Assembly (NCBI RefSeq): GCF_000428945.1
Contig: NZ_AUAX01000019.1
Location: 186,001-250,000, forward strand
Source: Hamadaea tsunoensis DSM 44101
GTDB taxonomy: Bacteria; Actinomycetota; Actinomycetes; Mycobacteriales; Micromonosporaceae
Direction: 5' to 3'
Length of the DNA stretch: 64,000 nucleotides
Shown: piece by piece, positions 4,207 to 63,960 of the stretch
How positions within the stretch are numbered: the stretch's first letter is position 1
How the letters are laid out: each line of letters starts with the position of its first letter
Notes under the pieces: model-generated
Databases searched by the model: none
The model's input: only the letters and a program-made list of their open reading frames with translations
Told to the model about the DNA's origin: nothing
Made by a program: the position numbers and the translations under genes

Positions 4207-5115
4207 GCTGACCACGACCGGCGTACCGCAGGCGAGCGCCTCCAGCGCGGCGAGCCCGAAGGTCTCGATCGGCCCGGGCGCGAGCACGACGTCCGCCGCC
4301 GCGAGCAGGCCGGCCAGTTCGGTCCGGTCCGTGATCCAGCCGGTGAACTCGGCCTCGCCCGTCCTGCGCAGCCGCTCCCGCAGCGGCCCGTCGCCGGCCA
4401 TCACCAGCTTCGCGCGTACGCCTGCCGCCCGCAGGGTCGCCAGCGTGGTCAGGGCCCGCTGCGGTCGCTTCTCCACCGACATCCGGGTGCAGCAGACGAG
4501 CAGGAGCTCGCCGGGGTCGGCGTACCGGGCGCGGACGGCGGGATCGAACCGGGCCGGTTGGAACAGGTCGAGGTCCACGCCGAGCGGCACCTGCGCGATG
4601 TTCCGCGCGCCGGCCGCCCGGAACTCCTCGGCCGCCCAGCTCGTCGTGCAGACGACCCGCCCGTAGTGCCGGGCGGTGGCCCGGTTGAGCCGCTTCGCAA
4701 ACGCCGTCCGCGCGCCCTGCGGCAGCCGGGCCACGCGCAGCAGCCCGTCGAGGCTCTCGTGCGACACCATCACCGATCCGACGCCGCGGCGGCGCGCCCA
4801 GCCGCCCGTCCAGCGCAGCGTGAGCCGGTCGGAGACCTCGATCCGGTCGGGCTTCAGGCCCGCCAGGACGTCGGCGACGTCCGACCGTCCCAAGAGGACG
4901 CGGTAGCCGCCCATCGACGGCACCTCCGGCCCCGGAATCGTGATGATGCGGCCCTGCGGGGTCAGCTCGTCGGAGTGCGCCGGGCCCGGCATGACGAGCA
5001 CCGGCTCGTGCCCGGCGGCCGCGTACCCCCGGCCGAGCTCGCGCAGCGCGGTCCGCAGGCCGCCCGACTTCGGCGTGATGAAGTTGGCGAGGCGCACGAT
5101 ACGCAGGCCGCTCAC
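4015..5115 (-). CDS. GT4 glycosyltransferase (probable GDP-mannose mannosyltransferase)
   Basis: 366 residues with GT-B architecture: an N-terminal acceptor domain and a C-terminal Rossmann half with MSVEKRPQR near 212-220 (donor phosphate contact) and the E-x7-E signature ETFGLAALE at 284-292. No membrane helices, so cytoplasmic. It lies 4 bases (ATGA overlap) behind another GT4 gene, and both converge on the MptB/GT87 pair. This suggests work on the cytoplasmic, GDP-mannose-using steps of the same glycolipid pathway (PimC/MgtA-type); the exact linkage is inference. Its C-terminal coding end lies opposite the tail of the GT87 gene. Confidence 0.82.
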   Translation of the reverse strand: MSGLRIVRLANFITPKSGGLRTALRELGRGYAAAGHEPVLVMPGPAHSDELTPQGRIITIPGPEVPSMGGYRVLLGRSDVADVLAGLKPDRIEVSDRLTLRWTGGWARRRGVGSVMVSHESLDGLLRVARLPQGARTAFAKRLNRATARHYGRVVCTTSWAAEEFRAAGARNIAQVPLGVDLDLFQPARFDPAVRARYADPGELLLVCCTRMSVEKRPQRALTTLATLRAAGVRAKLVMAGDGPLRERLRRTGEAEFTGWITDRTELAGLLAAADVVLAPGPIETFGLAALEALACGTPVVVSSSSALPDVVGPAGVAVAGEDFAAGVRQLLAEPADVRRRRARDRAERFGWDAAVRGFLAVHESL

Positions 5116-6248
5116 GGCACGAGCTCCAGTTCCCGGGCGCGCCGGCCGAGCGCGGCCCGATAGTGCGAGATGAGCTGGTCGCCGAGCGCGGCCCAGCTCC
5201 GGTCGGCCACGGCCAGCCGGGCGGCGAGCCCGAACCGCTGGCGTACCTCGGGGTCGGCGAGTGCGGTCACGGCGTGGGCGATCGCGGCGGAATCGTACGC
5301 GGGCACGAGGAAGCCGGTCACGCCCTGCTCGACGAGGTCCAGCGGGCCGCCCGAAGCCGGCGCCACCACCGGTACGCCGCTCGCCAGCGCCTCCTGGATG
5401 GTCTGGCAGAACGTCTCGTGGGGTCCGGTGTGGACGAACACGTCGAGGCTGGCGTAGATCGTCGCCAGGTCCGCGCCGGACCGCCCGCCGAGGAACACCG
5501 CGTCCGGCAACGCCTTCTCGACGGCTTTGCGGGTCGGCCCGTCGCCGACGACCACCACGCGTACGCCCGGCTCCCGCGACGCGTCCCGCAGCAGCTCCAC
5601 CCGCTTCTCGTGGGCGAGCCGGCCGACGTATCCGACGATCAGCTCACCCTGGGGCGCCAGCTCCCGGCGGAGATCGGCGCTGCGCCGGCCCGGATGGAAC
5701 AACGTGGTGTCGACCCCGCGACCCCACCGGGCCACCCGCGGAATCCCGTGCTCGGTCAGCTGGTCGGCCGTCGACGAGGACGGCGCGAGCGTCACGCTGG
5801 CCCGCCCGTGGATGTCGGCGATCCACCGCCACGCGGCCCGCTGCGCCAACGTGACCCCGTACGCGTCCGCGTACCCGGGAACGTCGGTCTGGTAGACCGC
5901 GACGACCGGCAACCCGAGTTCGGCGCCCGCCCGCGCGCCCCAGGCGCCGAGCACGAACGGGCTCGCCAGGTGCACGACGTCGGCCCGGTGCAGCCGCAGC
6001 GCATCCTTGATCAGACGGCTGGGCCCGGCCAGGCGGACGTTCCGGTAACCCGGCATCGGCAACGACGGCAGCCGCAGCACCGGGTACGCCTGCGGTGCGG
6101 CGAGGTGCCGCAGGGCCCGGCCCGGCTGCGGCGCGATGACCAGCGGTTTGTGCCCCCTGGCCATCAGGTGTTCGGCCACGCGCAGGACCGAGTTGGCCAC
6201 GCCGTTGACGTCGGGGGCGTAGGACTCCGTGATGATCGCGACCCGCAT
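5112..6248 (-). CDS. GT4 alpha-mannosyltransferase, MgtA/PimB-like
   Basis: 378 residues. N-terminal ESYAPDVNGVANSVLR is the typical opening of GDP-mannose-dependent alpha-mannosyltransferases such as MgtA. GRLAHEKR at 209-216 and the E-x7-E motif ETFCQTIQE at 278-286 mark the donor site. These soluble or membrane-associated enzymes transfer mannose from GDP-mannose to glycolipid acceptors (PIM or glucuronosyl-diacylglycerol in known relatives). First gene of a two-gene unit; its TGA overlaps the ATG of the following GT4 gene. The substrate choice between PIM and MgtA-type acceptors cannot be settled from sequence. Confidence 0.82.
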   Translation of the reverse strand: MRVAIITESYAPDVNGVANSVLRVAEHLMARGHKPLVIAPQPGRALRHLAAPQAYPVLRLPSLPMPGYRNVRLAGPSRLIKDALRLHRADVVHLASPFVLGAWGARAGAELGLPVVAVYQTDVPGYADAYGVTLAQRAAWRWIADIHGRASVTLAPSSSTADQLTEHGIPRVARWGRGVDTTLFHPGRRSADLRRELAPQGELIVGYVGRLAHEKRVELLRDASREPGVRVVVVGDGPTRKAVEKALPDAVFLGGRSGADLATIYASLDVFVHTGPHETFCQTIQEALASGVPVVAPASGGPLDLVEQGVTGFLVPAYDSAAIAHAVTALADPEVRQRFGLAARLAVADRSWAALGDQLISHYRAALGRRARELELVP

Positions 6249-6346
6249 GGCCGCAGGCTACGAAGATCAACTAGCGGGCGAGAGTCGGTGACACCTCCGG
6301 CACGTAAACTCCGCCCGACGGAATCCCTTTTCCTCATCCCTTTCCT

Positions 6347-6420
6347 CGACGATCTTGCGCGAGTGTCTCGAATTTCGTCGGGCATGCCCGGAATGCGGGT
6401 ACATCCGCGCAAGATCGTCG
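6347..6420. repeat. Family B palindromic repeat, copy 1
   Basis: Perfect 15-base inverted arms, CGACGATCTTGCGCG at 6347-6361 and its complement at 6406-6420, enclose about 44 bases that contain the smaller palindrome GGGCATGCCC. The same arms recur near 14.6 kb and 34.6 kb. It lies just past the 3' end of the methyltransferase gene, so it could also act as a transcript end. Confidence 0.8.
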
Positions 6421-6438
6421 CGCGGCAGGGGGAGGGCT

Positions 6439-7236
6439 TTACGGGCGGTGGGCGGTGACGATGACGTAGCCCTTGGGGTCGCGGCGGGGCGACTCCTCGT
6501 CGAACAGCGCCACCGCGTACGCCTCGATCGCCGCGACCATCGCGTCCCGCCGGGGGTCGTCGGCGGTGATCCCGTAGCCCGTGAGGCACGAAACCGCGTA
6601 CGCGGCAACGGGTCCGGGGGAGTCGAAGACGAGCTCGTTGTCGTGGCGGTGCACCCGGGCGTTGCCGAAGACGTCGCCGACCAGGCCGGGCAGGTTGCCG
6701 GAGTGCACCTTGAGCCAGAACTCCGGCCGCCGTACGCCGAACGCCGCCAGCGGTCTCCGGGACGCCTCGTGCAGCAGCGGCGTCGTGTGTTCGAGGTTGA
6801 CCAGAGCCGCCACCGTCCCACCCGGACGCAGAACGCGCCGGGCCTCGCGGAGCGCGCGGCCGGGGTCGGGGACGTGGTAGAGCATGTGCCGCAGGGTGAC
6901 CACGTCGAAGGTGGCGTCCTCGAACGGCAGCTCCTGGGCGTCGGCCCCGACCGCCGTCACCCCCGGTACGCCGTCCAGCGCCGCGATCGCCGCGGGCGAG
7001 GCGTCCACGCCGACGAGCCGCCCGGCGTGCCCGGAAGCGGCGAGGCGGCGCAGGTAGGAGCCGGTGCCGCAGCCGATGTCGAGCAGGTCGGCGGTGTCGC
7101 GCAGGACCACGGCCTCGTCGACGCTCGCCTCGATGTCATCCGGGCGGGCGCTGTAGCGGCGGTGTGTCTCGATGCGGACCGAGAGCGGGTCGAGGGTCGC
7201 GTACTGGGCGCGGGCGATGCCGTCCTCGTCAAGCAT
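6439..7236 (-). CDS. Class I SAM-dependent methyltransferase
   Basis: 265 residues. Motif I LLDIGCGTGSY at 51-61 binds S-adenosylmethionine, and VGVDASP plus the LRHMLYHVPDP and VLRPGGTVAAL segments complete a methyltransferase type 11/25 Rossmann domain. The open frame continues upstream to 8316 through the XRE gene, but codon pattern and domain start place the initiator at the ATG at 7236. The substrate is unknown. It lies 26 bases after the XRE-family gene on the same strand and may be co-transcribed with it. Confidence 0.82.
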   Translation of the reverse strand: MLDEDGIARAQYATLDPLSVRIETHRRYSARPDDIEASVDEAVVLRDTADLLDIGCGTGSYLRRLAASGHAGRLVGVDASPAAIAALDGVPGVTAVGADAQELPFEDATFDVVTLRHMLYHVPDPGRALREARRVLRPGGTVAALVNLEHTTPLLHEASRRPLAAFGVRRPEFWLKVHSGNLPGLVGDVFGNARVHRHDNELVFDSPGPVAAYAVSCLTGYGITADDPRRDAMVAAIEAYAVALFDEESPRRDPKGYVIVTAHRP

Positions 7237-7262
7237 GATCGCGACCCTACCCGTGCGTCCGG

Positions 7263-8048
7263 TCAGAAGTGGTCCCCGTCGTCGGGCCCGGGCTGCGTCT
7301 CCGCCGCGAGTCCGTCGTCGGTACGCGCGTGCGCCCAGGCCCGGTCGAACCCGGTGGCGAACATGTCGAACAGGCCGGCGTCGGTGAGCCGGCGGACGTG
7401 CATGATCGGCTCGACGAAGCCGAGCGAGCCGTAGACGTGCTGGTGGACGAGCATCTCGTGGTCGAAGCGGAACAGCGAGTTGTAGACCGCGCCGCGGTTC
7501 CAGCGCAGTTCGGCGTGGCCGGCCCGGATGACCGGGTCGAAGAGCCCCCGCGCGGTCCGGGCGCGGTCGGCGGCGCTCTGGTAGAACGAGCCGTCGTCGT
7601 AGGCCGGCGGTTGCGGCGTGCGGTGGTCGGCCAGCAGCAGCCGCACCGCCGTCCCGGCCGCCCCCTTCGCCTCGATGATGCCGAGCAGCGCGGGCTCGGC
7701 GGCGAGGATCGACAGCCCGCTGACCGCCTGGATCTCGATCGTGGTGGTGGCGGCCCCGGCCAGCTCGCGCCAGATGTCCGTCGGCACCTCGGTGCGGTGC
7801 GTGTAGAACCGCAGGAAGTCGCCGCGGCCGTTGACGGTCGGCACGTGCTGACCGTCGAGCCGCGGCCACAGCCAGCCCGACGGGACGCCGAGTCCGGCGG
7901 CCGCGCGGTGGGCGGTCGCCCGGCGCGGCGTACGTCCTTCGTATATCCAGCGCTCGGCGGTCTTCGGGTCGACGCCCGCCCACTCGCTGAGTTCCCTGAT
8001 CGTCACACCGGCCGCCGTCAAGGCGGCCTGCAGCCTTTCGTTGCGCAC
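7263..8048 (-). CDS. XRE-family regulator with C-terminal phospholipase-D-like (DUF5919-type) domain
   Basis: 261 residues. Residues 1-55 form a Cro/XRE helix-turn-helix (TIRELSEWAGVDPKTAERW). Residues ~75-240 look like the degenerate PLD-like sensor domain attached to many actinobacterial XRE proteins, with HQHVYGSLG-type strand/turn pattern. Such proteins are presumed DNA-binding regulators whose ligand is unknown. The GTG start is preceded by GGGGAGGGG at a good distance. It precedes the methyltransferase gene and is separated from the upstream P450 gene by 344 non-coding bases that should hold its promoter. Confidence 0.75.
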   Translation of the reverse strand: MRNERLQAALTAAGVTIRELSEWAGVDPKTAERWIYEGRTPRRATAHRAAAGLGVPSGWLWPRLDGQHVPTVNGRGDFLRFYTHRTEVPTDIWRELAGAATTTIEIQAVSGLSILAAEPALLGIIEAKGAAGTAVRLLLADHRTPQPPAYDDGSFYQSAADRARTARGLFDPVIRAGHAELRWNRGAVYNSLFRFDHEMLVHQHVYGSLGFVEPIMHVRRLTDAGLFDMFATGFDRAWAHARTDDGLAAETQPGPDDGDHF

Positions 8049-51413: not shown

Positions 51414-54400
51414 ATGCCCTCTCTCCTCAGGCTGAACCGCCTCCTCCGCCCGGCGCTCGCGGTGACGCTCGCGCTGACGTCGATCGGGTACGCGCCGCCC
51501 CCCGCCCTCGCTTCCCCGGATGTGCCCGCCCTGCAGACCGCGCGGTCCGTCCGGCCCGTGGCTCCCGGGCTCACGCTGACCTCCACCGATTCCGTCGACG
51601 CCGGGGGCTGGCTGCGTACCGACGCGCTGACCGCGGACCTCGGCAACGGCACGAAGATCGACTACCTGAGCCCGGGAGCGGTCGCGGCCGACGCCACGGT
51701 ACGCGGCATGGCGGCCGCCACGAAGCCGGTCGCCGCGGTCAACGGCGACTTCTTCGACATCAACAATTCCGGTGCGGCGCTGGGGATCGGCGTACATTCC
51801 GGGGAGTTGGTGCAGTCGCCGACCGCCGGCTGGTCGCACGCCGTGGGCTTCACCGCCGCCGGCATCGGCCGCCTGGTCGAGGTCGGGTTCGACGGCACGC
51901 TCACCTCGCCGTCGGGCGATCTCGCGCTGACCCAGTTCAACAACATCGTGGCGCGCGACGGCATCGGCCTGTTCACCTCGCTCTGGGGCACCTACACCCG
52001 GCAGCGGGCGGTCGACGGCGCCACGTCGGTGACGGAAGTGTCCGTGGTGGACGGTGTCGTGACGTCGGTCGGCTCCGCCGCCGGCTCGGGCGCGATCCCG
52101 GCCGGCACCTCGATCCTGCTCGGCCGCGACGCGGGCGCGACCGCCCTGGGCCGGCTCGCGGTCGGCGACCGGGTGAGCGTCGCGTACCACGCCAAGACCT
52201 CGGACGACGCCGGCCTGTACGCGGCTGTCGGCGGCAACAACATCCTGGTGAAGGACGGCGTACCGCAGACGTTCGACGACACCGCGCTGGCTGCCCGCAG
52301 CGCGATCGGGTTCTCCGCGGACGGCACGAAGATGTTCATCCTCACCGTCGACGGCAAGCAGGTGAACAGCGCGGGCGTGACCCTGACCCAGTGGGCGAAG
52401 CAGGTCGCGTCGTTCGGGGCGTACTCGGCCCTGAACATCGACGGCGGCGGCTCCTCGACGCTGCTCGCCCGCGAACCCGGCTCGGCCGACCTGACCCTGG
52501 AGAACAGCCCGTCGGACGGCTCGGAACGGGCGGTGGCCAACGGGCTCGGCCTGTACGCGCCGGCCGGCTCGGGCAGACTGACCGGCTTCTGGGTCGCGCC
52601 GAAGGCCGACCCCGCGGCGGCGCCCGGCGCCGACCAGGTGACCCTGGCCCGCCCCGACCGCGTCTTCCCCGGCCTGACCCGGGCGCTGTCGGCCGACGGT
52701 TACGACGAGACCTACGGCCCGGCGGCGGGCGACCCCTATTGGCGTACGAACATCGCGCACGGCTGGGTCTCGGGCGGGGTTTTCCACGCGCTGCTGCCCG
52801 GCGAGACCGACGTGACGGCGTTCCGCGGCACCGCGAAGGGAACGACCCACGTGACCGTCCTCGACCCCCTGGTACGCATCGCCCCGACCGCCGACCGCAT
52901 CGCGCTCTCGGCGACGGGCGGCACGTTCGGCGTGGTCGGCTACGACCGCGACGGCTACAGCGCGCCGATCGAGCCGGCCGACACCAAGCTCGACTACGAC
53001 CACTCGTTGTTCTCGGTCGTGCCGGGCGCCGACGGGATGTTCACGGTGACGTCCCTCCAGGCGACCGCCGCCGGGCTGATCACCGTGCACGTCAACGGTT
53101 CCACGACCTCGCTGGCGGTCACGGCGGGCCTGACCGACGTGCCGGTCGCCACCTTCGACGACGCCGCCCAGTGGACGTTCACCCAGGCCCGCGCCTCGGG
53201 CTCGCTGTCGGCCGCGGAAGGCCACACCGGCCAGGGCCTGAAACTCGGCTACGACTTCACCCAGTCGACCGCCACCCGGGCCGCGTACGCGAACCCGCCG
53301 ACCCAGTTCACCGTGGCCGGACAGCCCCAGGCGTTCGGCATGTGGATCTACGGCAACGGCAAGGGCGAATGGCCGGCCCTGGAGTTCTACGACGCGCTCG
53401 GCCAGTCGCAGATCCTCCGCGGCCCCTACGTCACCTGGACCGGCTGGCAGTACGTCGAGATGGCGGTGCCGGCCGGGATCGCGTACCCGCTGAAGCTGCG
53501 GCGGTTCTACGTCGTCGAGACCAAGGCGGCCGCCCAGTACAAGGGCGAGGTCGTGATCGACGACCTGGTCGCCAAGGTGCCGCCCTCGGTCGACACCCCG
53601 GCCGCGCCACACGTCGTCGACCCCGTCGTCGGCATGGCCACCCGCGCGGACTGGCACTTCGCGGTCATGTCCGACGCCCAGTTCGTCGCCCGCTCACCCG
53701 ACAGCGACATCGTCGCCAACGCCCGGCGTACGCTGCGCGAGATCAAGGCGTCCGGGGCGGACTTCGTCATCATCGACGGCGACCTGGTGGACGAGGCGTC
53801 GCCGGCGGACATCGCGTTCGCCAAGACGATCCTCGACGAGGAACTGGGCTCGTTCCCGTACTACTACGTACCCGGCAACCACGAGGTCATGGGCGGTCCC
53901 ATCGCCAACTTCCAGGCGGTGTTCGGCGACACCCACCGCGTCTTCGACCACGAGGGGACGCGGTTCATCACCCTCGACACCTCCGCCCTCACCATCCGAG
54001 GCAGCGACCCCGGCCAGTACGCGTTCCTGCGTACCGCCCTGGACCAGGCGGTCGCGGACCCGTCGATCAAGGACGTCGTGCTGGTCGAACACGTGCCGCC
54101 ACGCGACCCCACCCCGGGCAAGGGCAGCCAGCTCAACGACCGCAAGGAAGCCGGAATGGTCGAGAAGTGGCTCAGCGAACTCGGCAAGCCGGCCACGTTC
54201 ATCGGCGGGCACGTGGGCACCTTCCACGCATCCCATGTGGACGGTGTGCCGTACTTCATCAACGGCAACTCGGGCAAGAACCCGGCGACCGCGCCGGACG
54301 ACGGCGGCTTCACCGGCTGGACGCTGTTCGGAGTCACCGGCGGGAAGCTCACCGCCCAGGTCAACCCGCATGTCGACACGCTCGCCGTGACGGTGGCGCC

Positions 54401-54662
54401 GGTCGCGCCAGGTCAGACGGTCACGGTTTCCGGAGTGATCACCCAGCCGGGCGGGCGGATCGTGCCGGCGGCGTACCCGGTGGCGTGCTCGTGGACGTCG
54501 TCGTCGGGGGTCCGCATCGGACCGTGGTGGGCGGCGCGGCCGGGTGACGTGGCGGCCTTCGACCCGGCGACGGGAGAGCTCCGGGGCATCCGGCGCGGCA
54601 CGGGATCGCTGACCCTCACCGTCAACGGCACCTCCACCACCGCGACCGTCACCGTCGCCTGA
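51414..54662 (+). CDS. Secreted NAGPA-type phosphodiester glycosidase fused to a metallophosphoesterase
   Basis: 1082 residues. A signal peptide (LAVTLALTSIGYAPPPALAS) is followed by a NAGPA (phosphodiester glycosidase) domain with VNGDFFDINNSG and LNIDGGGSST, then beta-sandwich regions. A calcineurin-like phosphoesterase (about 745-985) follows, with metal motifs MSDAQF, IDGDLVDE, VPGNHEVMG and IGGHVGTFHA, and a C-terminal Big_2-like domain. It probably strips sugar-phosphate units from extracellular polymers such as teichoic acids; the two catalytic parts could act in sequence. TTGAAA lies at 51378 with TCTACT downstream as a possible promoter. An upstream TTG (51387) is a less likely start. 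Confidence 0.85.
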   Translation: MPSLLRLNRLLRPALAVTLALTSIGYAPPPALASPDVPALQTARSVRPVAPGLTLTSTDSVDAGGWLRTDALTADLGNGTKIDYLSPGAVAADATVRGMAAATKPVAAVNGDFFDINNSGAALGIGVHSGELVQSPTAGWSHAVGFTAAGIGRLVEVGFDGTLTSPSGDLALTQFNNIVARDGIGLFTSLWGTYTRQRAVDGATSVTEVSVVDGVVTSVGSAAGSGAIPAGTSILLGRDAGATALGRLAVGDRVSVAYHAKTSDDAGLYAAVGGNNILVKDGVPQTFDDTALAARSAIGFSADGTKMFILTVDGKQVNSAGVTLTQWAKQVASFGAYSALNIDGGGSSTLLAREPGSADLTLENSPSDGSERAVANGLGLYAPAGSGRLTGFWVAPKADPAAAPGADQVTLARPDRVFPGLTRALSADGYDETYGPAAGDPYWRTNIAHGWVSGGVFHALLPGETDVTAFRGTAKGTTHVTVLDPLVRIAPTADRIALSATGGTFGVVGYDRDGYSAPIEPADTKLDYDHSLFSVVPGADGMFTVTSLQATAAGLITVHVNGSTTSLAVTAGLTDVPVATFDDAAQWTFTQARASGSLSAAEGHTGQGLKLGYDFTQSTATRAAYANPPTQFTVAGQPQAFGMWIYGNGKGEWPALEFYDALGQSQILRGPYVTWTGWQYVEMAVPAGIAYPLKLRRFYVVETKAAAQYKGEVVIDDLVAKVPPSVDTPAAPHVVDPVVGMATRADWHFAVMSDAQFVARSPDSDIVANARRTLREIKASGADFVIIDGDLVDEASPADIAFAKTILDEELGSFPYYYVPGNHEVMGGPIANFQAVFGDTHRVFDHEGTRFITLDTSALTIRGSDPGQYAFLRTALDQAVADPSIKDVVLVEHVPPRDPTPGKGSQLNDRKEAGMVEKWLSELGKPATFIGGHVGTFHASHVDGVPYFINGNSGKNPATAPDDGGFTGWTLFGVTGGKLTAQVNPHVDTLAVTVAPVAPGQTVTVSGVITQPGGRIVPAAYPVACSWTSSSGVRIGPWWAARPGDVAAFDPATGELRGIRRGTGSLTLTVNGTSTTATVTVA

Positions 54663-55889: not shown

Positions 55890-56846
55890 TCACGAGGTGC
55901 TGAAGACGATCCGGTAATCGCATCCGCCGCCGCAGACGAACGTGCTCGTCGCGTCGTCGTCGACGTACGAGTACGCGAACGGCTGCGCCTTCTTGAACAC
56001 CGCCGCGTAGTCCACCGGCCACTGGTCCGGCCGGCACTTGTCCCGCGGCGCGTACGCACCCCGGCAGCAGTACTGGTCGGTGTCGAAGACGCCGCACGGC
56101 GACTCGCAGCCGACGACGCGGCCGCCCCGGTCCACGCGCAGCTCGGGCGGGCACGGGACGGCCCGGGTGCAGCCGTCCTTCGAACAGCCGCGCGTACTGA
56201 TCGGATCTTTCGTCCTGCCTTGGGCGATGTTGATCCACATCGGCACGTTCGACCCGTCGACCATGCTGACGTCGTAGAAGTCGAGCTGCTGCCAGGCCGT
56301 CAGGTTGAACTCGGCCAGCGTCGCCGGGATCACGCCGTACTGGCGGCACTGGAAGCGGCCGGCGCAGTCGCCCGTCGCGCAGCGGCCGTGCCCCGACGCG
56401 TCGAACGAGCACCCGGTACGCGCCCAGAACCGCCCGTTCCACCTGTCGGGCACGGAGATCGTCAGCGTGCCGCCGGCCGGCAGGACCCAGCCCGTCGTGG
56501 CGAGGGCGGGCTGCGGGGTCTGCTGCCACCCGGCGATCCAGAGCGTCTCGGCGAGCCGGTTGTCGAACGTGAACAGGCGGCTCCCCGCGGGCCGGGCCAC
56601 CGGTGACGCGCTGCGCTTCACCGGCGATCCGCTCGACGAGCCGCTGGGCGAGGCGCTCGACGATCCGCTCGGCGGGACACCCGGTGTGGCGCCGGCGGCC
56701 GCGACCACCGACGCGACCGGCGACGCGGCAAGAGAACCGCCCTGCGACAGTTCCGCGCGTACCTCGGTGAAGACCAGGACGCCGCCCGCCACGACGAGGA
56801 CGGCCGCCGCGACGGTCAGCCAGAGCCGGGGGCGGGACGGTCTCAT
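55890..56846 (-). CDS. Membrane-anchored thaumatin-like (PR-5) protein
   Basis: 318 residues. An N-terminal signal-anchor helix at about 9-28 has no lipobox Cys. A Ser/Pro/Ala linker runs to about 85, then a full thaumatin domain to the end. It shows the thaumatin signature (GRCATGDCAG around 154-163), DFYDVSMVDGSNVPM near 189-203, YCCRG and the final AYSYVDDDATSTF. Many Cys residues fit the disulfide pattern of plant PR-5 proteins, several of which bind beta-1,3-glucan and damage fungi. The ATG overlaps the stop of the preceding thaumatin gene, so both are coupled to the sigma-GH128 gene upstream. Antifungal function is inference. Confidence 0.88.
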   Translation of the reverse strand: MRPSRPRLWLTVAAAVLVVAGGVLVFTEVRAELSQGGSLAASPVASVVAAAGATPGVPPSGSSSASPSGSSSGSPVKRSASPVARPAGSRLFTFDNRLAETLWIAGWQQTPQPALATTGWVLPAGGTLTISVPDRWNGRFWARTGCSFDASGHGRCATGDCAGRFQCRQYGVIPATLAEFNLTAWQQLDFYDVSMVDGSNVPMWINIAQGRTKDPISTRGCSKDGCTRAVPCPPELRVDRGGRVVGCESPCGVFDTDQYCCRGAYAPRDKCRPDQWPVDYAAVFKKAQPFAYSYVDDDATSTFVCGGGCDYRIVFSTS

Positions 56847-57730
56847 CCGGACACTCCGAACGTGATCCGGTACGAGCAGCCGCCCTTGCAGGCCATCGTC
56901 GCCGAGTCGTCGTACGCGTACGAGTAGGCGTACGGGGCGGCGTGCTTGAAGACCTGGGTGTAGTCGGTCGGCCACTTCGACGGCACGCAGTGCTCCCGAC
57001 CCGACCACGAGCCCCGGCAGCAGTACGCGTCCCCGCCGAACGCGGCGCACGCGGTCCTGCACGCCACGGTGCGGCCGCCGGCGGCGACCCGCATCCCGGC
57101 GGGGCAGTCGACCGCCCGCGAGCAGCCGGCCGCGACGCAGCCGCCCGCGCTCACGGGATCCTTGCCGGTCGCGTGCGAAACGTTGATCCACACGGGCAGG
57201 TTCGACCCGTCGACCATGCTCACGTCATAGAAGTCCATACCGCCCCAGGCCGCCAGCGCGAACTCGGCGAGCGTGGCCGGGGTGGCGCCGCCGCCGTCGC
57301 ACTGGAACCGGCCGCCGCAGTCGCCGGTCTCGCAGTGCCCGCGTCCCGAGGCGTCGAACGAGCAGCCCGTACGCCCCCAGAAGCGGCCGCCCCACTTGTC
57401 CGGCACCGAAACGGTGACCGAGGCGCCCGGGCGCAGGACCCAGCCGGTGGCCGCGAGCGGGTGCTCCTTGTTCCGGTTGGCCGCCAGCCAGACGGTCTCG
57501 GACAGCTTGTTGACGAACGTCATCGTGCGCGTACCCGGTTTCGGCTTCGCCGTGGGCGACCCGGCCGCGGAGCGCGAAGGGGAGGGCGACGGAGCGGACG
57601 ACGGCACGGCGACCGGCGACGAGAGCCCGGCCGACGGCGTCGGCGCGAGGGAGGCCGCCACGGACACGGGATCCGAGCCGCAACCGGCCAGCACCAGCAG
57701 GAGCGACGACAACAGCAGCCGCGCTCTCAT
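56843..57730 (-). CDS. Thaumatin-like (PR-5) lipoprotein
   Basis: 295 residues. Lipobox LAGC with Cys17. A Pro/Ser linker to about 66 precedes a thaumatin domain: signature GHCETGDCGG at 131-140, DFYDVSMVDGSNLPV at 166-180, YCCRGSW, and AYSYAYDDSATMAC near the end. It resembles plant PR-5 proteins along the whole domain. It is the middle gene of three: the ATG overlaps the stop of the sigma-GH128 gene and its own stop overlaps the next thaumatin gene, both by ATGA. The two thaumatins are diverged paralogues anchored in different ways (lipid here, transmembrane there). Confidence 0.9.
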   Translation of the reverse strand: MRARLLLSSLLLVLAGCGSDPVSVAASLAPTPSAGLSSPVAVPSSAPSPSPSRSAAGSPTAKPKPGTRTMTFVNKLSETVWLAANRNKEHPLAATGWVLRPGASVTVSVPDKWGGRFWGRTGCSFDASGRGHCETGDCGGRFQCDGGGATPATLAEFALAAWGGMDFYDVSMVDGSNLPVWINVSHATGKDPVSAGGCVAAGCSRAVDCPAGMRVAAGGRTVACRTACAAFGGDAYCCRGSWSGREHCVPSKWPTDYTQVFKHAAPYAYSYAYDDSATMACKGGCSYRITFGVSG

Positions 57731-59508
57731 TTCGCCGCCACGTACGCGCGCCCGACGGTCGTGATGTCCGTGCCGCTGCGGAACAGCCCCGACTGGTCCT
57801 TGTCGGACGCCGGGAGGCCGAACCACGCGTACCGCTGCAGGAAGGACAGGCCGCCGAGCATCTGGAAGGCGGCGGTGACGAAGGCCGCCTGGTCGGCCTG
57901 CGCGGGGAAACGCGTACCGTTGGAGAAGTCGATGAGGGCGAATTCCGTGAGCCAGATGGGCTTGTGGTAGCGGTTCCACACGGCCGTGAGGTACGACTTG
58001 AGCTGGCTCACGGCGTTCGCGGTGCGAAAGTCGCCGCCGTACCAGTGCAGGGCGATGAAGTCGACGCGGTAGCCCTTGGCGGCCGCCCCGCTCATGAACC
58101 GGTCGAGCCAGCCGCCGGCGTCCGCGCCGCCCCACGCGACGGCCGGGCTGCCCAGCTTGCTGCCGGTGGCCATGAGCTGCGGCCACAGCGAGAGGGCCTG
58201 GTCGGTGGACATGTTGGCCTGCCCGGACATGTCGGGCTCGTTGAAGCCCAGCAGGTAGGGACCGGCTTTCCTGGCGTCGGCGAGCGCGCTCGCGGTGACG
58301 CTGCCCGCGCCCCAGATCATCGGCACGAAGGCGGCCTTCGCGGGCGTGCTCACGCCGTCGTGCCTGGTGTTCCAGGTGTAGTACCAGCTCGCGCCGGACG
58401 AGGCGAGCGCCTGGCTGACGCCGCCGAAGTTCCAGACCGCGACACCCTTCTTCGCGGACGTCGCCGGTGGCGGCTTCAGCACCGCCTTCTTCGACGCCGA
58501 AGGGGACACCGACGCCGAGGGAGACGGCGCGACCGTCACCGGCGGACTGGCCGACACAGCCGTGGACACCGACGGTTGGGCCATCGGCGTCGGCGCGGCC
58601 GCACCCGGGCTGAGTTGCGCCACCACGAGCGCCACCGCCACCGCTAGCGTCGTCACCCCGGCCGCCGGGATCAGCGCCGTCTTGCCGGTCAGCACCCGCA
58701 GGCCGCGCGGGCGTACGACCGCCGCGTGCGGCACCGCCCTCGCCGCCAGCAGGCTCGCCGGCACCGCCAGCACCGGCACCGTCGTCACGATCCGGTCCAC
58801 CGGCAGCCCCGAACGCTCGCGCGAGCACTCGGCGCAGCCGCGTACGTGGCGCGCGAAACGCTTGCGCCACAACGGACTCGGCTGCCCGTCCCAGCCGTGC
58901 GCCGTCTCGGCCAGCCCCGCGCAACCGGGTCGGCCGAGCGCGCGTACCACGCTCCGGCTGACCTCCACCTGCTCCTTCATCCGCTGTACGCGTACCGCGG
59001 CATGCTTGGTCCCGACGCCGATCGCCCCGGCGAGCCCCGCCCGGTCGACCTCGCCGATCTCCTCCAGCCACCACAGGGTGAGCAGCGTCCGGTCCTCGGG
59101 ATCCAGCCAGCGGGACGCCTGCGCGACCTCCCGCCGCTGCTCCGCCAACCCCATCCGCAACGCGGTCAGCTCGTCGAACGACGCGGCCGGATCGGCGACG
59201 TCCTGAGCATCCTCCAACCCCGCCGTACGCCGTTCAGCCGCCCGGCTCGACTGGGCGGCGTCGCGTACCTGCCGGACGGCGATCGCCACCAGCCACGACC
59301 GGTACGCCGCCGGATCCCGCAGCTCGCCGAGGTGGCGTACCACCCGCAGCAGCGTCTCCTGCACCACGTCGTCGACGTCGGGCCGCCCGCCCAGCGACCG
59401 GGCCACGATGTTGTAGACCAGCGGCATCGACTGCTGCACCAGCGCGTCCAGCGCACGACGGTCACCGCGGCGGGCGGCGGCGACCAGCGGGGGATCGGGG
59501 GTGTACAT
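57727..59508 (-). CDS. ECF sigma factor fused to zinc-finger/TM anti-sigma-like segment and extracellular GH128 beta-1,3-glucanase domain
   Basis: 593 residues in one frame. Residues ~7-80 are sigma region 2 (PDVDDVVQETLLRVVRHL) and ~120-185 region 4 (LDPEDRTLLTLWWLEEIGEV). H221-x3-C225-x2-C228 is the zinc anti-sigma signature. A membrane span lies at ~277-300, then a Ser/Pro/Ala linker. Residues ~354-593 are a GH128-type barrel with GFNEPD (Glu424, acid/base) and IWLTEFAL (Glu522, nucleophile). The sigma part should be cytoplasmic and the hydrolase outside. GAGGTGA upstream of the ATG at 59508 is a good ribosome site. ECF sigma factors with fused sensor extensions are known; a glucanase extension linked to thaumatins suggests glucan-controlled release of sigma activity. 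Confidence 0.9.
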   Translation of the reverse strand: MYTPDPPLVAAARRGDRRALDALVQQSMPLVYNIVARSLGGRPDVDDVVQETLLRVVRHLGELRDPAAYRSWLVAIAVRQVRDAAQSSRAAERRTAGLEDAQDVADPAASFDELTALRMGLAEQRREVAQASRWLDPEDRTLLTLWWLEEIGEVDRAGLAGAIGVGTKHAAVRVQRMKEQVEVSRSVVRALGRPGCAGLAETAHGWDGQPSPLWRKRFARHVRGCAECSRERSGLPVDRIVTTVPVLAVPASLLAARAVPHAAVVRPRGLRVLTGKTALIPAAGVTTLAVAVALVVAQLSPGAAAPTPMAQPSVSTAVSASPPVTVAPSPSASVSPSASKKAVLKPPPATSAKKGVAVWNFGGVSQALASSGASWYYTWNTRHDGVSTPAKAAFVPMIWGAGSVTASALADARKAGPYLLGFNEPDMSGQANMSTDQALSLWPQLMATGSKLGSPAVAWGGADAGGWLDRFMSGAAAKGYRVDFIALHWYGGDFRTANAVSQLKSYLTAVWNRYHKPIWLTEFALIDFSNGTRFPAQADQAAFVTAAFQMLGGLSFLQRYAWFGLPASDKDQSGLFRSGTDITTVGRAYVAAK

Positions 59509-59610
59509 CGGTTCACCTCGCGGAGGGGATCGTCAGGGGATGAGTGTGCCCAACGAGGAGACCCGCCCGCGACCTCACGGATAACAAAAATCCGCGGGTG
59601 ATCCGACCCT

Positions 59611-60605: not shown

Positions 60606-61835
60606 CTAACTAGGGTCCGTGGGCCGTGTTTGGGCCGTCTGGCCCTTCATCAGCGCGTCGATCGCAGCGCGAGTCCGGTTCTCACTAGAAGGCATCAAGT
60701 GGGTGTAGATCCGCAGCGTGAGAGCCGGGTCCGAATGGCCGAGGAACCGCGACAGAGCCTTGATGTTCTCGCCGGCGTCGAGCAGCACCGAGGCGTAGGT
60801 ATGGCGCAGAGCGTGCATGCCCCCGCTCCGAGATTGGGCGATGCCGGCCCGACCCAGTGCACGGTGCCACTGGGTCCCGTTGAAGGACTCGCGCCGGATG
60901 GGGTTACGGTGCGTGGTCGTCATGATGAGAGTCACCGTGGTCTGCGGTCCGTCGGGCTGTTCCCACGGCAGAGATACGGACACGGGCGGGAACATTGCCA
61001 TGTGCGTGCGTATCCGATCCGCCAGCTCACCGGCAACCGGAATCCGTCGTGACTTGTCGTTCTTAGGCAAGCCGAACACGAGGTGTCCCCGGACGTTCTT
61101 CAGTTGCCGCCGGACATGCAACCAAGCTTCCTCATGCGCGCCGACTTCCAGGTCGTCCACGGCCAGTCCGAAGATCTCGCCCTGCCGCAGCCCGCAACCC
61201 ACACCGAGATCCACGCACAGTCTGTAACGCTCGGCGAGGCCCGCCCTGATCGCGGCGACCTGATCTCTCGTCCAGGGCACCACCTCTTTCACGATTGCTC
61301 GCGGGCGGTGGATGCTCTTGGCCGAGCAGGGATTCTTGGACAACAGCTCGTCGTCCACGCCAGCGGCGAGAATCGAGTTGAGATGGGCAAAGATGGCTGA
61401 CCGCGTGTTGTCCGCCAGCGTCAGCGCGAGCGCGGCATCCCAGGCGCGGATGTCGCTGGGTTTGATCGTGTTCAGGCTCCGCCGACCGAAGTAGGGGAGG
61501 ATGTGCCGCCGAAGGCGACTCTCCATCGTCTCGCGAGACGATTCGTCGACCACGTGGGTCTTCAGCCAGTTTTCGGCGTACGCCGAAAACTTGACGCGGC
61601 CGGCAACAGGGTCGACGTATGTTCCTCGCAGCTTGTCTCCTTCAATGGAGATCAGGAAGTCGTCGGCTGCACGCTTCGCCCTATCGGGGAAGGACTTCGA
61701 CCGTTCGCGTCCAGCGGGATCGATGTACCGCACGCGGTAGCGAAGACCAACCCCGTGGCGAGCCGTGGGCACTCGCTCCTTCTTCTTGTCCGGCCCGAGG
61801 ATTTCTCGGTACCAGCGATCTTCAACATGTGCCAA
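60606..61835 (-). CDS. int: Tyrosine site-specific recombinase (integrase)
   Basis: 409 residues. An N-terminal SAM-like core-binding domain (KFSAYAENWLKTHVVDESSR) is followed by a catalytic domain with Arg217 (GLRQGE), His341-x2-Arg344 (HALRHTYAS), His367 (LGHSDP) and nucleophile Tyr377 (IYTHL). All catalytic residues are present, so it should be active. TTG start after AAGGAGG, which overlaps the excisionase stop region. It integrates the element at attB and, with the excisionase, excises it. Confidence 0.93.
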   Translation of the reverse strand: MAHVEDRWYREILGPDKKKERVPTARHGVGLRYRVRYIDPAGRERSKSFPDRAKRAADDFLISIEGDKLRGTYVDPVAGRVKFSAYAENWLKTHVVDESSRETMESRLRRHILPYFGRRSLNTIKPSDIRAWDAALALTLADNTRSAIFAHLNSILAAGVDDELLSKNPCSAKSIHRPRAIVKEVVPWTRDQVAAIRAGLAERYRLCVDLGVGCGLRQGEIFGLAVDDLEVGAHEEAWLHVRRQLKNVRGHLVFGLPKNDKSRRIPVAGELADRIRTHMAMFPPVSVSLPWEQPDGPQTTVTLIMTTTHRNPIRRESFNGTQWHRALGRAGIAQSRSGGMHALRHTYASVLLDAGENIKALSRFLGHSDPALTLRIYTHLMPSSENRTRAAIDALMKGQTAQTRPTDPS

Positions 61836-61844
61836 GGAGCCTCC

Positions 61845-62033
61845 TTAGTTGGTGCACTGGTCGTGAAACCAGGTGCGTACTTGTTCGGGGTCGTAGCGCA
61901 GGTACTTCCCGACGCGGCCCGAGGGTGGGCCGGTGCGCTTCTTGCGCCAGGCGTAGAGGGTTTCGACGGGAACGCCGAGATAGGCGCTGACGTCATCGAC
62001 GGTCCAGAGGGGGCGGGCCGCGACTGTGGTCAA
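61845..62033 (-). CDS. xis: Excisionase / MerR-like helix-turn-helix protein
   Basis: 62 residues. LWTVDDVSAYLGVPVETLYAWRKKRTGPPS and KYLRYDPEQVRTWF form the winged-helix AlpA/Xis fold that directs integrase to excision. TTG start after AGGTGA. Nine bases before the integrase start and in the same unit. Confidence 0.85.
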   Translation of the reverse strand: MTTVAARPLWTVDDVSAYLGVPVETLYAWRKKRTGPPSGRVGKYLRYDPEQVRTWFHDQCTN

Positions 62034-62184
62034 GGGTCACCTGCCTTTGGTTGGAAGTGGGCTGATTGCTTTGTGTTGCAGACATACCGGTGCCTCCGAG
62101 GCCTGTTTATCCACTATGGAGTTTTCAAGGAACGGGTTCGCGTGGTCGGGCATCCTTGTGGTCTGTCCGGTGGTCACGGGGTGG

Positions 62185-63960
62185 TCAGTGGTTGGTGAGG
62201 GCGTCGCGGATCGCGCCTCGTCTGGCTCTGGCCATGGCGGCTGAGGTGTTGGCGAGGATGGCGTCTCCGGTGGTGTGCCAGCCGCTGCCGGCGTAGGTGA
62301 GGCTGCCGACGATCAGGGTGGTTTCCTCGTCGGCGTGGTCGGCGGTGCGGATCGGCTCGGCGGGCCGGGGTGCCCGGTGGTAGTCGCGCCGGGCGGTGCG
62401 CAGGGCGGTGAAGGTGACGCTGTAGCGGCGGGCGGTGGTGAAGAAGTGGCCGCCGAAACCCAGCAGGTGCGCCCAGCGGCGTAGCCGCGAGTAGGGCTGG
62501 TCTACATCGGATGGGCTGCTGTTCGGGCGTGTGGTGTCAAGGTTGTCTTGACGCGTCGGGGCGCAGTGCACGCAGTGGGCGAGGCGGGTGGGTCGGGCGC
62601 AGGTGGGGCATGTCCAGCGCGGTCCGAGGGCGGTCGAGCGCCGTACGCGCGCCGGGCGTAGCAGTCTGGCCGTGGTGGCGGTGGGGCGGCCGAGGTGCCA
62701 GCAGGCGGCGATGAGGCGGTGCGGGTGGTCGCCGTCAGGGTCGGCGTAGGTGTCGTACGTGTCGTCGGTGATCCGCCCGGACGCGTGGCCGGTGACCTCG
62801 GATCCCTTCGTCGCGTATTTGGACAGGTAGCCGGCTACTTGGCCGTCGGTGATGGGGTCGGTGCCGGTGAGGGCGAGCGGACGTTTGTCGAGCTGCTCTC
62901 CCCAGGCGATCACCCACCCGTCGGCCTGGTCGGGGTGTGGTGGGGTGGTGAAGGCGATGCTGTCGCGGGCGTGCTGGAGGGCGGCTTCGATGTCGTCGGT
63001 GGTGAACGCGTCGGGCGGGGGGACGACCGCGGTGGGGTCGAGGGTGGCGACGCCGTCGAGGCGGACCAGGGCGTGGAAGTGCGCCACGCCGCGTGCTTGG
63101 AACTCGGCCGCCTTACCGTGGGACAGCCGCACCGGCGGGACGGTGCGGGGTTTCCCGTCGGGGGTGTAGCCGATCAGGACGTTGGGGATGCCGCGTTCGC
63201 GGGCGAGTTGAGCGAGGTACCTGTCCGCAGCTTGTTTGGTGCGCCGCCACAGCTCACCGGAGAAGCTGTTCCAGACGACCTGGGCGTTGTGGTCGTAGCA
63301 GTCCAGACACAGCGGCCTTCCGGTGCGCCGGTCGCCGGGCTCGTGCCGGGAGAAACACACCGCCGACGTCCCGTGGACACAGGTACGAGGGTCGCGGGGG
63401 CCGGTGCGGGCGTGGCACGGCTCGGCCCGGCAGTCGCAGCGAGACCGCTTGGTGCAGGTGTGACGGCGCACGACGCGGCGGTGCACGGTCCCGAAGCTGG
63501 GCGCGGTGAACGTCGCGAACGTCGCCGGATGCGACGCGACGCTGTCGGGGACGCCTTTGCCGCCGACGAGTCCAGCGCGTAGGAGTTGGTAGGCGTCCTG
63601 TTGGTAGAGCTTGGAGCAGGACGGGCATACGGACGCCAGGCGGGAGCCGCAGGCTTTGTAGATCTCGCCGTCGGGCATGTTGTCGGTGCGGCGGATCGCG
63701 GTGATCGTCGCGGAGTCGCCGGTCTTGGTGATGGTGTAGATGGAGCCGACGAGGCGGATCGGGCGGGTGCAGCCGGCGGCGGGGGCGATGTGGTGCAGCC
63801 ACCGGTCCATGTCGGTCGACGCGGCGCGGACGGCGATGTGGTCGCGGGCGTTGACCGGGCGCAGGTCTTGCCATGGGCGGGTGGGGGTCGGCTCGGCGGC
63901 CGGGGCCGCACCCAGCGGCATGGTGCTGCTGGGTGCGACGGTCGGGGTCGAGACGTTCAC
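62185..63960 (-). CDS. repSA: RepSA-type rolling-circle replication initiator
   Basis: 591 residues. Cys-rich zinc-binding stretches (CGSRLASVCPSCSKLY; CVHGTSAVCFSRHEPG; LCLDCYDH) and the HUH motif GVAHFHALVRLDG (His294 and His296), with a candidate nucleophile Tyr in GYLSKYATKG (about 395-404), match RepSA of pSAM2-like elements. It nicks the element's origin for autonomous replication after excision. GTG start at 63960, overlapping the stop of the gene upstream (GTGA), as is common in these operons. Confidence 0.92.
   Translation of the reverse strand: MNVSTPTVAPSSTMPLGAAPAAEPTPTRPWQDLRPVNARDHIAVRAASTDMDRWLHHIAPAAGCTRPIRLVGSIYTITKTGDSATITAIRRTDNMPDGEIYKACGSRLASVCPSCSKLYQQDAYQLLRAGLVGGKGVPDSVASHPATFATFTAPSFGTVHRRVVRRHTCTKRSRCDCRAEPCHARTGPRDPRTCVHGTSAVCFSRHEPGDRRTGRPLCLDCYDHNAQVVWNSFSGELWRRTKQAADRYLAQLARERGIPNVLIGYTPDGKPRTVPPVRLSHGKAAEFQARGVAHFHALVRLDGVATLDPTAVVPPPDAFTTDDIEAALQHARDSIAFTTPPHPDQADGWVIAWGEQLDKRPLALTGTDPITDGQVAGYLSKYATKGSEVTGHASGRITDDTYDTYADPDGDHPHRLIAACWHLGRPTATTARLLRPARVRRSTALGPRWTCPTCARPTRLAHCVHCAPTRQDNLDTTRPNSSPSDVDQPYSRLRRWAHLLGFGGHFFTTARRYSVTFTALRTARRDYHRAPRPAEPIRTADHADEETTLIVGSLTYAGSGWHTTGDAILANTSAAMARARRGAIRDALTNH

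Follow-up and report, generated by a model that had tools for sequence, protein, structure and literature searches.

Three genes of the actinomycete Hamadaea tsunoensis DSM 44101 are best read, and in our judgement probably rightly, as an autoregulated one-component glucan sensor with surface thaumatins among its outputs. They form an operon of three minus-strand ORFs (55890–59508; positions are those of the window, the whole stretch of 64,000 nucleotides that was analysed), and the operon's parts recur behind the same type of promoter in some related bacteria, which suggests that bacteria respond in this way to glucan of the fungal-wall type.

Architecture of the operon

Neighbouring genes overlap by four bases (ATGA) at both junctions and a simple gene caller recovered all three ORFs with identical boundaries, so that the coupled layout proposed in the sequence-only reading holds on ORF coordinates and on independent gene calling. 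Two elements that were absent from that reading, the zinc-finger motif of gene 1 and the promoter, are included in the following features.

59557–59586, minus strand: predicted ECF promoter motif, with −35 element TGTTATCC at 59579–59586 and −10 element GTCTCC at 59557–59562
57727–59508, minus strand: gene 1, a fusion of sigma factor, zinc-finger anti-sigma-like (ZAS) motif, membrane span, linker and GH128 domain, 593 aa
58933–59508, minus strand: ECF sigma regions 2 and 4, aa 1–192 (Sigma70_r2, TIGR02937, high-pLDDT helices)
58825–58923, minus strand: ZAS motif C196-x24-H221-x3-C225-x2-C228, four invariant residues
58618–58674, minus strand: single membrane span, aa 279–297 (Kyte–Doolittle 2.33 over 19 aa)
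58471–58617, minus strand: disordered linker rich in Ser, Pro, Thr and Ala, aa 298–346 (low pLDDT)
57733–58458, minus strand: predicted GH128 subgroup I endo-beta-1,3-glucanase domain, aa 351–592, catalytic residues E424 and E522
57727–57730, minus strand: ATGA overlap of genes 1 and 2
56843–57730, minus strand: gene 2, clade I thaumatin with lipobox LAGC, 295 aa, domain at about 56855–57523
56843–56846, minus strand: ATGA overlap of genes 2 and 3
55890–56846, minus strand: gene 3, clade II thaumatin with N-terminal membrane anchor, 318 aa, domain at about 55899–56561

The sigma part of gene 1 is matched by Pfam Sigma70_r2 (aa 23–87, E 9.1e-12) and by the NCBIfam sigma70-ECF profile TIGR02937 (aa 19–180, 53.6 bits, cut-off 42.9), and Sigma70_r2 and the GH128 profile are each found in all 36 aligned fusions. 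The four residues of the ZAS motif are invariant across the same alignment; Pfam zf-HC2 matches the region in only one of the 36, the assignment being made by motif and not by profile, and we take the spacing C-x24-H-x3-C-x2-C to be that of an anti-sigma zinc finger. A membrane span (Kyte–Doolittle at least 1.6) is present in 35 of the 36, the remaining one (L037) having been cut at the wrong stretch and so not properly measured. In the predicted structure pLDDT falls below 50 across aa 259–346. The C-terminal domain matches Pfam Glyco_hydro_cc (E 1.5e-50) and the sequence of AmGH128_I (6uaq; E 9.3e-86), and its model superposes on 6uaq with a TM score of 0.96 (by target length) at 1.3 Å and 60% identity. 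The catalytic glutamates are those of 6uaq, and E424 and E522 are invariant across the 36 fusions. By predicted fold and by both glutamates the domain is thus assigned to GH128 subgroup I, with hydrolysis predicted; the solved chain of 6uaq comprises just the enzyme domain (263 aa) and has no sigma part. Profiles, span and fold match therefore agree with the earlier proposal of an ECF sigma factor joined through the membrane to GH128, whose fold was borne out by structure prediction.

Proteins of this general plan are known. ECF52/ECF53 (and ECF48) factors, exemplified by SCO4117 of Streptomyces coelicolor, resemble gene 1 in that a single chain holds sigma factor, zinc finger, membrane span, proline-rich region and carbohydrate domain, and release of the sigma factor by proteolysis has been proposed for them (PMC8999054, PMC5826349). 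For some ECF52/53 proteins glycosyl hydrolase domains have been predicted but, according to a review, not studied by experiment (PMC10766802), so that gene 1 represents a further variant. Its sequence shows the features of the type, namely regions 2 and 4, the ZAS motif and a span with a Pro/Ser-rich extension, and it differs in its GH128 beta-1,3-glucanase sensor with intact catalytic residues and in the thaumatins of its operon. A second parallel is provided by the SigI/RsgI biomass sensors of Clostridium thermocellum, in which an extracellular polysaccharide-binding or hydrolase domain (GH10 and others) sits on the membrane anti-sigma factor RsgI and the output consists of enzymes for that polysaccharide. 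The coupling of an extracellular carbohydrate domain to a membrane anti-sigma is common to both. However, SigI/RsgI is a Firmicutes system of two proteins, with a sigma factor of another family and no thaumatin, whereas gene 1 is a single chain with an ECF-type sigma and no separate SigI and RsgI.

Both downstream proteins belong to the thaumatin family, as had been proposed, with matches to Pfam PF00314 above the cut-off (E 1.7e-63 and 1.1e-62 for genes 2 and 3); the evidence for the fold comes from the gene 2 model alone, which is of low confidence (mean pLDDT 58.5) and finds its best matches in the thaumatin-like proteins of cherry and apple (E 6e-17 and 1.2e-16). In plants, thaumatins work together with beta-1,3-glucanase in PR-2/PR-5 defence. 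The window pair resembles plant PR-5 proteins (Mal d 2, Pru av 2) in fold and acidic-cleft residues: four of the REDDD positions are kept in 22 of 22 thaumatin rows (one duplicate genome included), and the fifth is D in 17 and E in five. The differences are a bacterial origin, a lipobox or membrane anchor, and 14 cysteines (within the last 225 aa in all 22 rows) in place of the 16 typical of plants. The thaumatin signature, which we take to be PS00316, is matched by both window proteins and by 7 of the 22 rows overall. A solved actinobacterial structure, the Amycolatopsis rifamycinica thaumatin-like protein 7p22, is distant from the pair, gene 2 scoring 70 bits with it and 177 with the apple protein. 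In plant TLP-kinases a PR-5-type domain lies close to a signalling route at the membrane (PMC3048497); in those proteins the thaumatin serves as the receptor domain, whereas here the glucanase would be the receptor and the thaumatins the output.

The promoter motif and the genes behind it

The window promoter, TGTTATCC, a 16-nt spacer and GTCTCC, lies 48 nt upstream of the gene 1 ATG and agrees with the consensus at 14 of 14 bases. With a spacer of 15 or 16 nt and at least 12 of 14 bases, the motif stands upstream of 44 of 51 fusion genes (8 of 2550 shuffles), and of 10 of 21 thaumatin genes (3 of 1050 shuffles), rising to 19 of 21 at 11 or more bases (62 of 1050), although the consensus was derived from the same upstream regions that were then scored. 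The two thaumatins without it are the window's own operon-internal genes 2 and 3. In Actinospica, where the thaumatin gene comes first, it is this gene that bears the motif; the fusion behind it overlaps by four bases and has none. No clear motif was found upstream of two fusions (L022 and L053), and among partner genes it falls below 12 of 14 bases before two of the three that encode secreted GH128 and one of the two that encode F5/8C-DUF1996. The motif differs from that of SCO4117, given as CSGYN-17-SRHA.

An independent test was provided by a class-wide sample of 345 genomes, in which the exact motif occurs 11 times, against once for a reversed control. Four of the 11 sites precede genes of this sigma family, four precede carbohydrate-active genes and three precede genes with secretion-like N-termini of no clear family. 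Two lie in the Hamadaea genome, one being that of the window and the other upstream of a CBM2-pectate lyase gene. Because of that site, and because the motif serves a wider sigma family, recognition by the gene 1 sigma is something that we infer. A looser form, GTWRTCC-N15/16-GTCTCC, matches four times in the Hamadaea genome (reversed control, once). A regulon built from these sites was considered, but two (L203 and L204) were dropped as lying inside called ORFs of the opposite strand, and the fourth, before the CBM2-pectate lyase gene, may belong to a sibling sigma factor, sigma-Pel9A. No trans target is therefore claimed for the gene 1 sigma.

The siblings are informative in their own right. 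Sigma-AbfB, with an arabinose-binding domain, adjoins GH54 and GH10 genes, and sigma-Pel9A, with a pectate-lyase-like domain, adjoins pectate lyase and pectinesterase genes; the sensor domain thus matches the neighbouring genes, in these cases enzymes for arabinan and pectin. It could be argued that the promoter is used by other members of the family and that the gene 1 sigma has no control over its co-transcribed thaumatins, since the motif is also found upstream of sigma genes that lack GH128 and of lyase genes for pectin or alginate. We regard this as improbable: the motif is retained, across differing gene arrangements, upstream of fusions and of thaumatins that are transcribed separately, and it has no match close to either sibling sigma gene of Hamadaea.

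Recurrence of the parts in relatives

No other locus examined has the order sigma-GH128, thaumatin, thaumatin on one strand, so that the exact arrangement is not conserved among these loci, contrary to what a check proposed in the sequence-only reading had required, and cannot serve as functional proof. The argument rests instead on recurring content and on the promoter. A thaumatin lies nearby in 12 of 47 related fusion loci and is absent from the covered flanks of the other 35; it is a common partner of the fusion, not an obligatory one. All nine genomes in which the searches showed a plant-like thaumatin also carry the fusion's sigma and GH128 parts, adjoining the thaumatin in seven, and each of the seven two-thaumatin sets observed pairs one clade I with one clade II copy, both clades being old. 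The proposed association of thaumatin genes with those for beta-1,3-glucanase thus recurs in relatives, with a common promoter.

The same link was examined for thaumatins of a second group (group B, matches at E 1e-17 to 1e-30). In Streptomyces, GH128 lies within 1.5 kb at 34 of the 38 listed places, the exceptions being G691, G970 (GH128 2.4 kb off), G1022 and G775; a further place at a contig start (G639) is outside the 38. By contrast, no GH128 was found in the 1.5-kb flanks of 22 group B places of the window's own family (L103–L125, L125 being a second piece of L115). The link is therefore strong in Streptomyces and not universal. No promoter was found before the group B thaumatin in the 16 Streptomyces loci scanned (L173, L174, L184–L197), three of which have a loose match elsewhere, and the gene 1 type of sigma is involved in only part of the link.

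An integrase and a RepSA gene adjoin the operon, and thaumatin and PF11790 are absent from three genus relatives. These observations suggested horizontal transfer with the adjoining integrative element, which is not claimed, given that GC3 of the trio (0.93–0.94) equals the window mean (0.93). That the GH128 domain is just a tethered enzyme, its junction with the sigma factor decayed or accidental and the thaumatins passengers, would suit the unconserved order, the patchy distribution and the adjoining integrase and RepSA, but it is very improbable indeed given the invariant ZAS and catalytic residues and the co-occurrence of the three parts in several unlike arrangements.

A proposed glucan switch at the cell surface

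In the preferred reading, that of an autoregulated sensor, gene 1 would act as a sigma switch of one component, tethered to the membrane. On the cell surface its GH128 domain would meet, and probably cut, the presumed ligand, beta-1,3-glucan. This would relieve the zinc-finger anti-sigma part of the fusion, in all likelihood by regulated proteolysis at the membrane. The sigma factor so released would transcribe from TGTTATCC-N15/16-GTCTCC promoters; since one of these precedes the operon itself, the switch would amplify itself while deploying the two membrane-anchored thaumatins, which may bind or weaken the same glucan at the cell surface, with a presumed benefit against, or from, fungi.

What the response is for can be seen in two ways. 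The sigma factor may turn on the use of beta-1,3-glucan as food, from dead fungi, plant callose or algal laminarin, with the thaumatins as accessory openers of the glucan, a possibility that we place only a little short of even. Genes near the fusion in relatives encode GH16-RicinB, GH30-RicinB and CBM3-GH16 proteins (by Pfam) as well as sugar-transporter-like, GH1-like and GH20-like proteins (named from N-termini only), which suit feeding as much as defence, and the sibling sigma genes adjoin those of plant-wall enzymes; against this, the Pfam scan found no transporter or glucosidase among five neighbouring window genes. Dedicated fungus sensing, in which touching the wall of a live fungus would switch on antifungal proteins at the surface, was the earlier proposal and seems to us rather doubtful. 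It accords with the conserved acidic cleft of the thaumatins, but the data do not separate fungus from other glucan sources and tethering would restrict reach to touching hyphae. More tentatively, and somewhat less readily than feeding, the system may be seen as a touch response to beta-1,3-glucan, a miniature PR-2/PR-5 defence of actinomycetes in which the catalytic glucanase is the receptor, cutting and not just binding frees the sigma factor, and the thaumatins deployed are a matched, ancient bacterial pair. On this view the sigma chassis, which bears other enzyme or binding domains for other polysaccharides, would amount to a general receptor scheme with a common promoter grammar.

Our literature search listings yielded no paper on the role of thaumatins in actinomycetes; the present analysis ties bacterial thaumatins to beta-1,3-glucan through operon, promoter and co-occurrence. 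The computationally defined ECF52/53 hydrolase class gains a concrete case with a named promoter, residues and output genes, and the system offers a test case for bacterial sensing of fungal-type walls. If bacterial thaumatins cooperate with beta-1,3-glucanase as those of plants do, the pairing would be very old or would have arisen repeatedly.

Domains of the sigma-GH128 fusion and its operon

The three genes are coupled by two ATGA overlaps, as the sequence-only reading had stated, and lie on the minus strand:

55890-59508, minus strand: operon of three open reading frames, neighbours overlapping by ATGA, twice

The first gene encodes a 593-aa protein in which the proposed joining of an ECF sigma factor to a GH128 domain is confirmed by matches to Sigma70_r2 (9.1e-12), sigma70-ECF (score above its cut-off) and Glyco_hydro_cc (1.5e-50), the closest solved relative of the GH128-type domain being 6uaq (E 9.3e-86). 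The thaumatin identity of genes 2 and 3 likewise holds (family matches of 1.7e-63 and 1.1e-62), and the cleft residues of the thaumatins are conserved. In the AlphaFold2 model of gene 1, made on an alignment of 36 fusions (mean pLDDT 81), the sigma part and a helical zinc-finger anti-sigma (ZAS) part are separated by a disordered stretch (aa 259-346) from a GH128 barrel, which fits a GH128 subgroup I endo-beta-1,3-glucanase with a TM of 0.96 by target length (Foldseek). The gene 2 model is weaker than that of gene 1 (pLDDT 58.5); despite this, its best 29 matches are all thaumatin-like chains, the 30th being a laminaripentaose-producing beta-1,3-glucanase (E 4e-4).

Overlooked by the sequence-only reading was a motif between sigma and membrane, C196-x24-H221-x3-C225-x2-C228, which is unchanged across the 36 aligned fusions. 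Since its spacing is that of zinc-finger anti-sigma motifs, the protein would appear to have a brake built in. C-terminal to the motif lies a single strong membrane span (aa 279-297), found in 35 of the 36 fusions and directly followed by a Ser/Pro/Thr/Ala-rich linker. Both E424 and E522 are invariant across the aligned fusions, and in 6ufl, the structure of an E199Q mutant, the Q occupies the position equivalent to E522, which argues that the surface GH128 domain is probably an active enzyme.

A pSAM2-like integrative element close to the contig's end adjoins the operon at window positions 60606-63960, where matches identify a pSAM2-type RepSA initiator (PF20199, 1.2e-130) and a tyrosine integrase (PF00589, 1.9e-16). 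GC drops to 0.63-0.66 at 60-62 kb, and no tRNA gene was found in the 64-kb window. A 1082-aa protein with phosphodiester glycosidase (NAGPA) and metallophosphoesterase domains is encoded at 51414-54662.

Recurrence of the fusion and its thaumatins

Genome contigs were searched with gene 1, and the best 80 matches listed fall at 79 loci. Sigma and GH128 adjoin at 47 of these, including three (L049, L052, L054) at which the two parts are called in different frames. Among the matches listed, the 47 fusion loci belong to Streptosporangiaceae, Micromonosporaceae, Streptomycetaceae, Actinospica and MAGs, and 12 have a thaumatin within the flanks examined (three Planotetraspora, Actinospica, one MAG and seven Streptomyces). 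Arrangements vary between divergent, divergent plus convergent, and convergent only; in Actinospica (L027) one thaumatin overlaps the fusion start by 4 bases and the second is divergent, while in G599 (L158) two fusions in tandem accompany a divergent thaumatin. The three-gene order of the window, sought in other actinomycetes, has no second case among the fusion loci examined.

Representatives of the other fusion loci have F5/8C-GH128, F5/8C-DUF1996, GH16-RicinB, GH30-RicinB, CBM3-GH16 or DUF305 proteins as neighbours. Next to the fusion of L025 lies a DUF1996 protein that also has an F5/8C domain (Pfam); in L017, where its gene has the shared promoter, and in L175 such a protein is placed by similarity or reading only. 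DUF1996 could thus be active on beta-glucan. In L053 (Streptomyces; 4291-5739 and 5980-7806) the GH128 ends of the fusion and of a divergent secreted protein are almost the same, which would fit a recent copying of the domain.

Searches for thaumatins irrespective of GH128 found them in 24/250 genomes of the window's family, 8/394 of its class and 41/392 of Streptomyces. Plant-like (group A) thaumatins occur in nine genomes of these samples, and all nine contain both the sigma and the GH128 parts, in a single open frame (Hamadaea tsunoensis, G190, G599, G725, G920, G671), in two frames or pieces (G241, G741) or on two contig ends (G834). These parts adjoin the thaumatin in seven of the nine and lie elsewhere in G241 and G190. 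Strong GH128 hits (E below 1e-40) were obtained in 12 of 121 Streptomyces genomes, 11 of them also thaumatin-positive (Fisher p 5e-11, with the remaining 380 genomes of the 392-genome thaumatin search as comparison; the value is approximate because most of those 380 were without a GH128 search); weaker PF11790 hits in seven further genomes of the sample (best G755, 9e-20) were left uncounted. Streptomyces also has a second, distant thaumatin type (L127-L157, L173-L197, L226-L233), with GH128 within 1.5 kb and the sigma part absent nearby at 34 of 38 places; no sigma promoter precedes it in the 16 loci scanned.

In an unrooted tree of 39 thaumatin rows, all 21 group A rows fall on the same side of one branch (support 99/96). 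Within this group, gene 2 belongs to a clade of 15 rows (96/93) and gene 3 to a weaker one of six (88/83). The plant rows, two sequences only, group in this unrooted tree with A rather than with the more distant group B (100/100). All seven two-thaumatin sets seen (the window, L027, L034, L040, L180, L181, and G834, split over contigs L178 and L179) have one member per clade by best score to other loci, and the second thaumatin is reduced to a short remnant in L045 and L012. This pairing, together with the remnants, suggests that the fusion and the thaumatin pair are an ancient module of three parts, some of which have since been lost at some loci.

A promoter motif common to fusions and thaumatins

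Reading of upstream regions revealed TGTTATCC-N15/16-GTCTCC behind a T-rich tract, found before the operon at:

59557-59586, minus strand: predicted promoter of the operon, 14/14 bases with a 16-nt spacer, 48 nt upstream of the ATG

With two duplicate genomes taken out, 44/51 fusion upstreams score 12 or more against 8/2550 shuffles, as do 10/21 thaumatin upstreams against 3/1050 (at 11 or more, 19/21 against 62/1050), scores that are partly circular because the consensus was drawn from the same upstreams. One of three secreted GH128 partners and one of two F5/8C-DUF1996 partners also reach 12. Of the seven fusions below 12, L015 scores 11, L023 and L033 reach 11 and 13 when scored manually from the correct start, L027 and L158_3 are second genes of same-strand tandems, and L022 and L053 lack the motif. 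The two of 21 thaumatins without it are genes 2 and 3, internal in the window operon.

As an independent test, the exact motif was sought across 345 genomes of the class, giving 11 hits in nine genomes, the window operon's promoter included, against one for the reversed control. Nine of the 11 sit 4-111 nt upstream of a called gene; at L214 and L215 the starts appear to have been miscalled, the motif there being near a sigma gene of the fusion's sigma family and an F5/8C-GH128 gene. Four of the genes at the 11 hits are of that sigma family (gene 1 included). The others encode an F5/8C-GH128 protein, a CBM2-pectate lyase, two members of the alginate-lyase family and three proteins of ~490 aa whose N-termini are secretion-like and which fit no clear family, L213 being judged by its N-terminus only.

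Sibling sigma proteins and a proposed mechanism

Sigma factors that combine anti-sigma, span and carbohydrate domains in one chain are already known as ECF48/52/53 (PMC8999054, PMC5826349), and hydrolase domains of ECF52/53 were predicted earlier without experiments (PMC10766802). The literature searched, from which most subscription papers and the ECF classification are absent, holds no earlier description of a GH128 sensor with conserved active site, of a thaumatin pair as GH128-sigma partners, of a promoter common to fusions and thaumatins, or of a sensor-neighbour match within one genome; those papers may contain one.

Two sibling proteins in the Hamadaea tsunoensis genome have the same sigma-ZAS-span chassis (42-45% to gene 1):

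L002 (G000:C13), L003 (G000:C21): sibling loci with AbfB and Pel9A-like outer domains; neighbours are arabinan and pectin enzyme genes

The AbfB-ended sibling is divergent from a GH10-CBM2 gene, and two GH54 arabinofuranosidases lie within ~4 kb of it; next to the sibling ending in a Pel9A-like helix, genes for a RicinB-pectate lyase and a RicinB-pectinesterase run divergently. A search near the two sibling sigma genes did not find the exact promoter motif. In Streptomyces and its relatives the chassis also bears further kinds of outer end (L069-L071, L077, L080, L085 and others), a CAP domain in L069; the remaining loci look similar by their C-termini only.

In both siblings the outer domain fits the substrate of the neighbouring genes' products, and by the same rule the thaumatins would belong to a beta-1,3-glucan response. 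Beyond the observed parts, residues, promoter motif and recurrence, a mechanism can be proposed for this system, whose role may be defence or feeding, the results not separating the two. Glucan would be the signal for gene 1, the zinc-finger brake would be released by proteolysis, as the ECF52/53 literature leads us to expect, the switch would amplify itself, and the thaumatins would be surface proteins acting on glucan.
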